Assembly (NCBI GenBank): GCA_021325365.1
Contig: JAJPHF010000157.1
Coordinates: 1-8,872, forward strand
Length of the DNA: 8,872 nucleotides
Direction of reading: 5' to 3'
Origin: Pseudomonadota bacterium
GTDB taxonomy: Bacteria; Chloroflexota; UBA6077; JAJPHF01
Shown here: one piece after another, positions 631 to 8,739 of the stretch
How the letters are laid out: the number at the start of each line of letters is the position of its first letter
Numbering within the stretch: the stretch's first letter is position 1
Notes under the pieces: generated by a model
Database searches by the model: none
What the model was told of the DNA's origin: nothing
What the model saw: only the letters and a program-made list of their open reading frames with translations
Made by a program: the position numbers and the translations under genes

Positions 631-1677
631 ATGCCCGAACTCCCTGAAGTAGAAACCACGCGCCGCCACCTGGCCGAGCACCTGCCCGGCGCGCGGGTGG
701 CGGCGGTGGCGCTGCTCGATCCGCGCGCCCTGCTGCGCCCCGATCCCGCGACGTTCGCTGCGCGCGTCGTCGGCGCGACGGTCCTGGCCGTCGCGCGGCG
801 GGCGAAGTACCTCATCGTGCCGCTTACTCCGACTTGTGGCCAGGCTGAACGATCGGCTGACACCGGGGTTGCGGCCTGCGGGCCGCGGGCGGGCACGCGA
901 CCCGCCCCTACGATATTCGGCGGACTGCCGGCGGGCGGGAAACCCGCCGCTACCAGACGCCGGCCGCGCTCCTTGCCTGCAAGCAGTGCTGGCGGCGCGG
1001 TGGCGAACGGCCAGGTATGGACGAATGCCAGCCGCCGAAACGGGCAGGCGGCGCCGGCCGACGACTACCTGATTGTCCACCGCCGCATGACGGGCAACCT
1101 CTTGCTGCGCGAGCCGGGCGCCCCGCCCGACGCGCACACCGTAGCCGTGCTTACGCTGGACGACGGCCGCGAACTGCGCTTCTGCGACATGCGCCGCTTC
1201 GCCAAGCTGTGGCTGGCCGACGCCGCGGAGGTGGCCGCGCTCGACCGGGCGCTCGGTCCCGAGCCACTGACGCGCCTGTTCACCGCCGAGCGCCTGGCGG
1301 CGGCGCTCCGCGGGCGGCGCGGCTCGCTGAAGCCGCTGCTGCTGAACCAGAACCTGGTGGCCGGGCTGGGCAATATCTACGTGGACGAGGCGCTGTTCGC
1401 CGCGCGCCTGCACCCCACGCGCACGGTCGACACGCTGACCGACGCCGACTTCCGCCGCCTGCACCGCGCCATCCGCGCCGTGCTCGCGCAGGGCATCCGC
1501 AACGAGGGCACGACCTTCCGCGACTACCTGGGCGCCGTGGGCCAGCCCGGCCGCAACCAGATGATGGTCGAGGTGTTCAAGCGGGAGGGAAAGCCCTGCT
1601 CGCGCTGCCGTACGCTCATCCGGAAGACCCGCGTGGGCGGCCGCGGCACTCACTACTGCCCCCGCTGCCAGCAGTAG
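631..1677 (+). CDS. mutM: Formamidopyrimidine-DNA glycosylase (Fpg/MutM) with an internal 78-residue insertion
   Basis: Bifunctional glycosylase/AP lyase that removes 8-oxoguanine and ring-opened purines in base excision repair. Family signatures are complete. The N-terminus is MPELPEVETT; Pro2 is the nucleophile after Met removal and Glu3 follows it. Lys59 in RRAKYLIV matches E. coli Lys57. Met153 in HRRMTG and Arg189/Phe190 in DMRRF are the void-filling residues. GLGNIYVDE carries the DNA-binding Asn248 of the H2TH region. The C-terminal zinc finger is C323-x2-C326-x16-C343-x2-C346, with Arg338 at its tip. The product is 348 residues, whereas the family is usually about 270-280. The excess lies between Leu65 and about Ala143, exactly where E. 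coli Fpg has a short beta-turn (PEG). The start is supported by the invariant MPELPE and a purine-rich site (GAGAGGGG) before it. The insertion is in frame, so the protein is probably active, but this is inferred. Confidence 0.95.
   Translation: MPELPEVETTRRHLAEHLPGARVAAVALLDPRALLRPDPATFAARVVGATVLAVARRAKYLIVPLTPTCGQAERSADTGVAACGPRAGTRPAPTIFGGLPAGGKPAATRRRPRSLPASSAGGAVANGQVWTNASRRNGQAAPADDYLIVHRRMTGNLLLREPGAPPDAHTVAVLTLDDGRELRFCDMRRFAKLWLADAAEVAALDRALGPEPLTRLFTAERLAAALRGRRGSLKPLLLNQNLVAGLGNIYVDEALFAARLHPTRTVDTLTDADFRRLHRAIRAVLAQGIRNEGTTFRDYLGAVGQPGRNQMMVEVFKREGKPCSRCRTLIRKTRVGGRGTHYCPRCQQ
871..967 (+). repeat. Double-hairpin palindromic repeat, copy 1, inside fpg coding sequence
   Basis: It is bounded by inverted ends GCGGCC and GGCCGC. 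Inside are two perfect hairpins: GGGCGGG (887-893) with CCCGCCC (901-907) around a 7-base loop, and GGCGGG (934-939) with CCCGCC (943-948) around AAA. A related sequence on the opposite strand lies at 6038-6147. The first 42 bases of the two copies match at 35 positions without gaps and the last 19 at 16; the middle aligns only with gaps. It is translated in frame as part of the extra Ala/Arg/Pro/Gly-rich segment of Fpg. Confidence 0.75.
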
Positions 1678-5927: not shown

Positions 5928-6037
5928 GCGTTCCATCTCCTGTTGTGGTGGCACGCTCGCCGCGCCAGCCGCGCGCCTACCGCGCCGTGGGGGTGGGCCG
6001 AGCCGAGCGGCCTTAGAGCGCCGTGCAAAGCGGGTGA

Positions 6038-6147
6038 GCGGCCAACGTCTGGTAGGGGCCGGTTGAAACCCGCTCGCGGCCCGCGGCGTCGTGCCCGCCC
6101 GCTAACGTAGGGGCGGCTCCGGTGGTCGTCCGCGCCCCGCAGGCCGC
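6038..6147 (-). repeat. Palindromic repeat, copy 2, in the leader of the ligJ operon
   Basis: Read on the - strand it starts GCGGCCTGCGGG and ends CAGACGTTGGCCGC, as copy 1 in fpg does (CAGACGCCGGCCGC). It also shares the core CCGCCCCTACG and the same GCGGCC/GGCCGC inverted ends. On the + strand it shows two GTAGGGGC motifs about 55 bases apart, like the two modules of copy 1. It is 13 bases longer than copy 1 and its inner hairpins are less perfect, so it is a diverged family member rather than a recent duplicate. Confidence 0.7.
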
Positions 6148-6239
6148 TGCCCCGGCGCCGGCCGGTCACTCATCCGAGCTGCAAGCCGCTGTAGTGGCCG
6201 CCGGCGACGCGGTGACGCGGGTGGCCCGGCGCTCGGCTC

Positions 6240-8061: not shown

Positions 8062-8457
8062 ATGAACCTTCGCAAGTCCAGCCGGCCCCTCGTGATGGCC
8101 TCGGTGCTGACTCTCGCTGGCCTGAGCGTCACCGCCTTGCAGGCTCATGCTGAGGACCAGGGGGCGTGTACTCCCGCCACCTGCGGCACCAAGACGTGCT
8201 ATGACTACTTCAACCGCAGCGGGACCTACTCTGGCGGCGACACGATCGTTTTCAAAAACTCAGAAGGGGAGCTCCACATCTACATCTGCAATGGCTTCAC
8301 GGGCGACTGGGACTTCGTGGGTGGGCCGCCGCCGCCCGCGGGCAACCCACGTGGGCCCGTGCCGGGCAGTATGGCCCCGCCGGCTGAGACCTCGCCGACG
8401 AGCCCCGCCGGGCCGCCGAGCGTCACCGGCCCGCGTCCCAACGCCCCCGCGCGCTGA
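8062..8457 (+). CDS. Small secreted four-cysteine protein with proline-rich C-terminal tail, function unknown
   Basis: 131 residues; family not recognised. A Sec signal peptide is clear: MNLRKSSRP, a hydrophobic core VMASVLTLAGLSVTALQ, and a signal peptidase I site AHA-ED after residue 30. The mature part (31-88) has Cys36, Cys41, Cys46 and Cys76, enough for two disulfides, and is rich in Gly, Thr and aromatic residues (CYDYFNRSGTYSGGDTIVF, LHIYICNGFTGDWDFVG), suggesting a small beta-rich domain exported and oxidised outside the cytoplasm. Residues 89-131 are a Pro/Gly/Ser/Ala tail, probably disordered. There is no lipobox, LPxTG motif or membrane anchor. AGGAG lies six bases before the ATG. 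The core uses more A/T-ending codons (for example TTC-AAA-AAC-TCA-GAA) than its neighbours. It stands alone on the + strand. Confidence 0.8.
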   Translation: MNLRKSSRPLVMASVLTLAGLSVTALQAHAEDQGACTPATCGTKTCYDYFNRSGTYSGGDTIVFKNSEGELHIYICNGFTGDWDFVGGPPPPAGNPRGPVPGSMAPPAETSPTSPAGPPSVTGPRPNAPAR

Positions 8458-8596: not shown

Positions 8597-8645
8597 TGGT
8601 CCGGGCTCGCCTGCCCACACCGCAGCCTCACGCTCATGCCGCGGT

Positions 8646-8685
8646 TGTAGCGGGTCGCGGCTCGTGGGGCAAACCCGCCACGGCG
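8646..8685. repeat. Possible degenerate third copy of the GTAG/GGCGGGT repeat
   Basis: GTAGCGGGTCGCGGC followed by GGGGCAAACCCGCCAC resembles the module GTAGGGGCGGGTCGCG seen on the reverse strand of copy 1, with a GCGGGT/ACCCGC pair. It lacks the inverted ends and most of the second module, so membership is tentative. Confidence 0.35.
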
Positions 8686-8713
8686 GCGTCTGAAGGCGGG
8701 CGTGAACGTTTGC

Positions 8714-8739
8714 GAGCCTGGCTCGGGCGAGCCAGGCTC
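8714..8739. terminator. Perfect 11-bp hairpin, possible terminator
   Basis: GAGCCTGGCTC and GAGCCAGGCTC pair perfectly around GGGC. It lies about 256 bp after the secreted-protein gene. The following bases TCTCTGCT are only moderately T-rich, so it could be a weak terminator or simply a palindromic repeat. Confidence 0.4.

Follow-up and report, generated by a model that had tools for sequence, protein, structure and literature searches.

The fpg (mutM) gene of an uncultured bacterium, probably a member of the Chloroflexota, carries a DNA repeat with two GTAG-tagged hairpins that is read in frame as part of an expanded protein loop. In our reading, to which we assign a probability of about 0.8, a mobile repeat of the GTAG-REP type landed in frame in a tolerant turn of the glycosylase, the resulting loop is most likely tolerated, and the same turn was apparently hit twice. 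The features are compiled in Table 1, with positions counted in the window, i.e., the whole stretch of 8,872 nt (8.9 kb) that was analysed. It harbors the end of polA, fpg, and genes for a response regulator, a PAS/GAF histidine kinase, an HpcH/HpaI aldolase, an amidohydrolase, and an NMT1-like binding protein.

Table 1. Positions of fpg, its landmark codons, and the repeat features in the window.
Feature	Position	Strand	Basis
fpg/mutM, formamidopyrimidine-DNA glycosylase, 348 aa, with expanded loop	631..1677	+	Pfam and NCBIfam matches
Conserved Lys59 codon	805..807	+	Alignment to Geobacillus MutM (Lys60, counted from the printed alignment)
REP-bearing repeat element, copy 1, 143 bp, read in frame as ~48 residues (67-114)	830..972	- (GTAG tags)	Local alignment to 6033-6189; non-coding codon-position GC
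Near-palindrome GCGGCCTGCGGGCCGC, adjoining hairpin 1	871..886	.	Sequence and predicted fold
GTAG hairpin 1, GTAGGGGCGGGTCGCGTGCCCGCCC	887..911	-	884-911 identical to a place in genome G077
GTAG hairpin 2, GTAGCGGCGGGTTTCCCGCCCGCCG, same orientation as hairpin 1 (head-tail pair)	929..953	-	Pattern and fold
Remaining part of the expanded loop, 28 residues (115-142)	973..1056	+	Inferred older hypervariable loop of the clade
Met153 codon, strand after the insert	1087..1089	+	Alignment to Geobacillus MutM (Met77)
Intergenic copy 2, in inverse orientation to copy 1, with decayed hairpins and GTAG at 6052 and 6107	6033..6189	+	Alignment to copy 1

In the deduced Fpg, Pfam placed the N-terminal domain up to residue 65, the H2TH domain at residues 208-297, and the zinc finger at 320-348. 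The original prediction had described the protein as about 78 residues longer than its family, with the extra segment in a turn. The location was right, while the size had to be corrected to 76 residues, based on 348 aa in the window Fpg and 272 aa in uninserted close relatives such as P0009. Alignment to the best solved MutM chain breaks off at residue 62 and restarts at residue 145. Lys59 and Met153 correspond to Lys60 and Met77 of Geobacillus MutM, which places the extra segment in the turn between the strands of these two residues. We take Lys59 to be the catalytic lysine and Met153, as the counterpart of Met77, to be a functional residue as well. As predicted, the known functional residues on both sides of the insert are all kept in the alignments, namely Pro2, Glu3, Lys59, Met153, Arg188, Phe190, Asn248, and the zinc-finger cysteines Cys323/326/343/346; Pro2, Glu3, Arg188, Phe190, Asn248, and the four cysteines presumably have the functional roles assigned to them in Fpg/MutM. 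Six residues separate Lys59 from the insert and eight separate the insert from Met153, and these strand lengths suggest that the loop is directed away from the active site. Fpg is probably still active as an enzyme despite the insert. The window Fpg (P0001) comprises two member sequences on five contigs, perhaps including the contig of the window, which makes an assembly error less likely.

Local alignment of the element (830-972) with the reverse complement of 6033-6189 extended over 156 columns with 109 identities and 13 gap columns, i.e., 76% identity in the ungapped columns. The score was 54, whereas 1000 dinucleotide shuffles averaged 13.8 and did not exceed 23 (z 17.65). As a further control, 87 stretches of 235 nt from the window were used as queries; those without overlap with the repeat pair reached at most 31, and the median of all 87 was 21. 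A related copy lying between genes in the opposite orientation had thus been predicted correctly, with the extents of 871-967 and 6038-6147 now replaced by 830-972 and 6033-6189. Two copies were found within the 8.9-kb window. A third one suspected by eye near 8640-8720 was rejected, as the best matches elsewhere in the window scored at background level (15-20) and were located elsewhere. Inspection by eye revealed no clear target-site duplication around the insert. The GC content by codon position is 0.73/0.83/0.71 for 829-972 and 0.73/0.49/0.95 for the C-terminal core, so that the segment still looks non-coding. Since four of its six frames are open, the element would be readable through as an Ala/Arg/Pro/Gly-rich loop of ~48 residues.

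According to Di Nocera, De Gregorio, and Rocco (2013; PMC3733652), GTAG-REPs are short palindromes defined by GTAG at their base, and Chloroflexi are one of the phyla in which they occur. In the element of the window, GTAG opens both minus-strand hairpins (911-887 and 953-929) as a terminal tag. Two GTAG hairpins on one strand appeared in 0 of 3000 shuffles of the element (at least one in 39 of 3000), and a GTAG hairpin was lacking in all 60 further 143-nt tiles taken from the window. Folded alone, each 29-nt unit is predicted to form a stem of 8 bp, which lies within the dimensions of GTAG-REPs (stem of ~6-13 bp, unit of 20-40 bp). Folding of the hairpins only moderately beats that of shuffles (z -1.39 and -2.10, with 17/200 and 7/200 shuffles as good), the whole 143-nt element folds no better than its shuffles (z -0.95, 26/200), and the hairpins of the intergenic copy are decayed (z 0.70, 1.48, and -0.76). 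In the predicted fold of 830-972, local hairpins were seen but no end-to-end pairing. The element of the window does not display the inverted REP pair characteristic of REPINs, both GTAG hairpins being on the minus strand.

Beyond the window, positions 884-911, comprising hairpin 1 and its flank, agree in all 28 nt with a dispersed repeat of genome G077. This repeat yielded 48 matches at E<=0.01, including six inverted pairs ~145 bp apart. G077 was the sole genome with a match at E<=1e-6 among the 400 of the Chloroflexota search group, and its matches were hairpin-sized. With at most two candidates per genome scored, the full 143-bp form did not turn up in any of these 400 genomes at E<=1e-6. 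These results bear on a different origin of the loop, namely growth by slippage or drift of GC-rich low-complexity DNA, with a merely compositional likeness to 6033-6189. We regard this as improbable for the element, given an alignment z value well above both the dinucleotide shuffles and the control queries of the window, the presence of two GTAG hairpins, and the 28 nt shared without mismatch with the dispersed repeat of G077.

In a search of 158, 396, 393, 400, and 29 genomes for a close relative, one was found, G1009 (69% to P0009); a contig scan for a close genome gave 51% as the best among the matches listed, and seven Fpg relatives were identified in IMG/VR (best 39%). G1009, the closest genome to be identified, belongs to a class with 29 genomes, which is referred to as the nearest class. 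Here, a relaxed REP pattern resulted in 196 hits in 11 of the 29 genomes, a number that includes hairpins counted twice (variable spacer, both strands), compared to 5 hits for the reversed control pattern. The remaining 18 genomes, G1009 included, showed no match to the relaxed pattern, and in G1009 neither REP pattern matched. Y1_Tnp domains above the cut-off were detected in 8 of the 29 genomes. REP-rich G1015 had three weak matches, and REP-rich G1057, G1117, and G1045 had none; among the seven window proteins scanned with Pfam, no Y1 transposase was found. Around the Y1_Tnp genes of this class, 14 of 278 GTAG sites start a hairpin. The corresponding counts are 3 of 714 for fpg loci and 5 of 1363 for 20 named loci, these controls being mostly from other classes. 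Of all 256 tetramers, TAGG, CGTA, and GTAG, three registers of one tag, had the highest hairpin rates in the Y1_Tnp loci. In the fpg control loci, too, no tetramer had a higher rate than TAGG, but its 7/340 is well below the 14/121 near Y1_Tnp. In 4 of 14 loci (L165, L167, L168, and L173), the Y1_Tnp gene is flanked on either side by GTAG hairpins of opposite orientation, which is the arrangement of a RAYT. In L167 (G996, contig C293), the flanking hairpins at 1375 and 1920 are identical. The element of the window was presumably moved by a RAYT-type Y1 transposase.

For comparison of the turn among relatives, the best 120 of 7806 Fpg homologues above threshold were considered, of which 116 could be parsed. 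The segment from the lysine to the next strand motif had exactly 14 residues in 101 of the 116, 13 residues in two, and more in 13, and all 13 with a long segment fall within P0001-P0019. P0001-P0008 form one clade (support 95/99) in a core tree for which the loop was removed from P0001-P0023 and four outgroup proteins were entered whole. Though the cores of P0002-P0008 are 89-93% identical to that of the window Fpg, the loops of P0001-P0008 measure, in this order, 77, 81, 26, 44, 28, 56, 6, and 26 aa; P0005 and P0007 share 99.6% of their cores and have loops of 28 and 6 residues. With sizes so variable in near-identical cores, the turn is a hypervariable, permissive site. The original claim of a palindromic repeat lying in frame in this turn is supported. 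The relatives do not share the segment in the way of a conserved domain.

The loops of P0003 and P0008 are related (z 13.0), no pair involving P0001 exceeded z 3, and an RNG tail is visible in several loops of the clade. Repeat DNA accounts for only ~48 of the 77 loop residues and not for the other 28. For the stretch encoding the latter (973-1056), no match above background was found elsewhere in the window. The remainder is about the size of the P0003, P0005, and P0008 loops, and its size and the shared RNG tail suggest that these 28 residues stem from a hypervariable loop that was already present in the clade. Judging from size, the simplest order of events would be growth of the loop to some 26-28 residues and subsequent entry of the element at the loop start. 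The hypervariable turn, this source-less part, and the other expanded loops of the clade are what speaks for slippage or drift: five of the six tested (P0002, P0003, P0004, P0005, and P0008, but not P0006) gave no clear repeat match and were dropped as repeat-derived. The P0004 loop against copy 2 and the P0003 loop against copy 1 were each equalled by 2 of 60 shuffles and discounted given the number of tests; the comparison covered the loops within the clade, with P0012, P0013, and P0017-P0019 left out. For 973-1056 and the loops of P0003, P0005, and P0008, slippage or drift is still the explanation that fits best.

The sixth loop behaved differently. The loop of P0006 matched a reverse-strand frame of the element (VGAGRVPARGPQAATPVSADRS against VGAGCTPARGLQAAAPARADAS) with a score of 74, compared to 28-33 for the forward frames. 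This score was reached by none of 3000 shuffled loops (maximum 62), none of 2000 shuffled elements (maximum 58), and none of 113 other pieces of the window (maximum 53). The match spans ~846-935 and thereby extends beyond hairpin 1. It emerged from an initial screen with the six translated frames of the element that took in seven loops and three libraries, and the margin holds up against the number of tests in that screen. At the protein level, this suggests a second, reversed insertion of the same repeat family at the Fpg turn. Regarding further copies, which a mobile origin had been said to need, there are thus 6033-6189 in the window and, at the level of protein, the P0006 loop.

Under the preferred reading, a mobile GTAG-REP element, small and non-autonomous and in this case a 143-bp composite carrying a pair of GTAG hairpins, would have landed in fpg at an expanded, sequence-tolerant beta-turn with the frame preserved. 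The element would then be read through as a loop rich in Ala, Arg, Pro, and Gly. The catalytic core is preserved, and most likely the loop is tolerated without being of use. One repeat family would have hit this turn at least twice, in opposite orientations, in the window Fpg and in P0006. The variability of the loop speaks for tolerance, and the insert is presumably neutral in Fpg. Mobile bypass elements exist in some mitochondria, and GC-rich hairpins in a conserved gene recall them, so that removal or skipping of the insert after transcription (splicing, intein-like removal, or ribosome hopping), leaving a protein without the added loop, was considered as well. It appears highly improbable: the insert is open and keeps the frame, relatives with different loops keep it too, the Pfam scan of Fpg detected no intein domain, and the window gave no Rfam match at the gathering score.

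The insert had also been called domesticated, a description that is not supported. A loop retained for changing Fpg activity or the mutation rate would fit with the REPs in several repair genes of other bacteria and the mutator speculation in PMC3733652, and with the hits seen here, apparently two in fpg and one in recG of a related genome. However, neither sequence nor length of the loop is conserved, as the near-identical cores of P0005 and P0007 with their different loops illustrate. A search for the insert peptide in other proteins returned the query alone (44 candidates of 0.55-1.75 x query length), as did that for the P0006 insert peptide (170 candidates of 0.55-1.75 x query length). We therefore give little credence to domestication. 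A census of REPs in the related class, covering 81 distinct groups after merging of overlapping matches (loci L124-L162 and L184-L283; 14 of the 43 pattern hits in G1117, and without six contig-end sites, four in G1015 and two in G1117), revealed a coding-like frame across the REP in 8 of 81 groups. A bias to repair genes is unmeasurable with so few.

The clearest case in this census is recG (L136:1501-1525; G1117, contig C99), in which a GTAG-REP hairpin encodes an in-frame GGFETRPY that precedes the matched part of the helicase-C domain, with 7 residues extra compared to two solved RecG proteins. In queG for epoxyqueuosine reductase (L257:1501-1523; G1015, contig C118), a GTAG-REP hairpin is likewise in frame, and the stretch with the REP between two aligned parts has 68 residues compared to 20 in the solved protein. 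A methyltransferase gene (L195) and a CoA ligase gene (L197) have an in-frame REP near a domain junction and represent candidate insertions. L188, L196, and L270 were dropped as in-gene evidence, a domain match being present without a visible sign of insertion, and so was L149, a frame without a family. The in-frame hairpins of L136, L195, and L197 share one reading frame ending in R-P-Y-E. A preferred reading frame for in-frame REPs is possible, though three cases are too few to establish it. Across the G077 repeat, none of 26 distinct groups (30 loci of the 48 matches) showed a coding-like frame.

With respect to known systems, the main text of PMC3733652 describes in-frame REPs in uvrA, uvrB, uvrD/rep, recBCD, polA, dnaE2, and DNA ligase (both tags, several species), weighs a neutral effect in loops, and speculates on mutators. 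Like these intragenic GTAG/CGTC REPs, the repeat of the window is a tagged short stem-loop translated in frame in a repair gene; unlike those described there, it is a longer 143-bp composite with a head-tail pair of hairpins, and the Fpg turn was apparently hit twice in opposite orientations. The likeness to the Rickettsia palindromic elements (RPE; Ogata et al.), 105-146-bp palindromic repeats in frame in conserved genes (PMC2229807, PMC3733652), had been pointed out originally. It stood as far as in-frame insertion in a conserved gene is concerned, but not as to type: the tag is GTAG instead of the CGTC reported for R. conorii RPE sequences (PMC3733652), a long stem-loop with terminal inverted repeats was not seen in the predicted fold, the lineage is unrelated, and intragenic REPs occur outside Rickettsia according to the same text. 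One guanylate kinase from Rickettsia that carries such an insert is reported to be active, its substrate affinity being changed (PMC2229807). Resemblance to REPINs/BIMEs with RAYT transposases (PMC2817692, PMC3116915) lies in the GTAG hairpins near Y1_Tnp in related genomes and the inverted pairs of G077; unlike in those, the two tagged hairpins of the window element point in the same direction, and a Y1 transposase is absent among the seven scanned proteins of the window. The tandem repeats of M. tuberculosis (PMC2734929) are located upstream of fpg, outside the gene, and are of another type. The window case is well supported as a further example of a known phenomenon, its unusual feature being the apparently repeated hits at one turn.

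The words mutM and formamidopyrimidine do not appear in the main text of PMC3733652, its supplementary gene list aside, and no report of a REP inside fpg was found among the titles and abstract starts listed in a literature search. With the window case, fpg/mutM joins the repair genes with repeat-coded inserts that are named in that main text. Among the relatives, loop length grades naturally from 3 to 81 residues within one protein, and a single turn has apparently been hit twice independently, so that whether such loops are tolerated or used becomes directly testable in a small, easily assayed enzyme. A wider reading appears rather unlikely to us: the Fpg turn of this clade would be a recurrent landing site for REPs in both orientations, with repeat-coded loops gained and lost even among nearly identical proteins, and the variants could tune 8-oxoguanine repair and mutation rate within a broader entry of REPs into repair genes.

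Apart from the repeat, window positions 8062-8457 contain an ORF of 131 aa without a Pfam match that has, by eye, a signal-peptide-like start and a Pro-rich end. Between polA and fpg (516-612), two G/C-run palindromes, each with C runs followed by G runs, were recognized by eye, possibly a terminator or another type of repeat.
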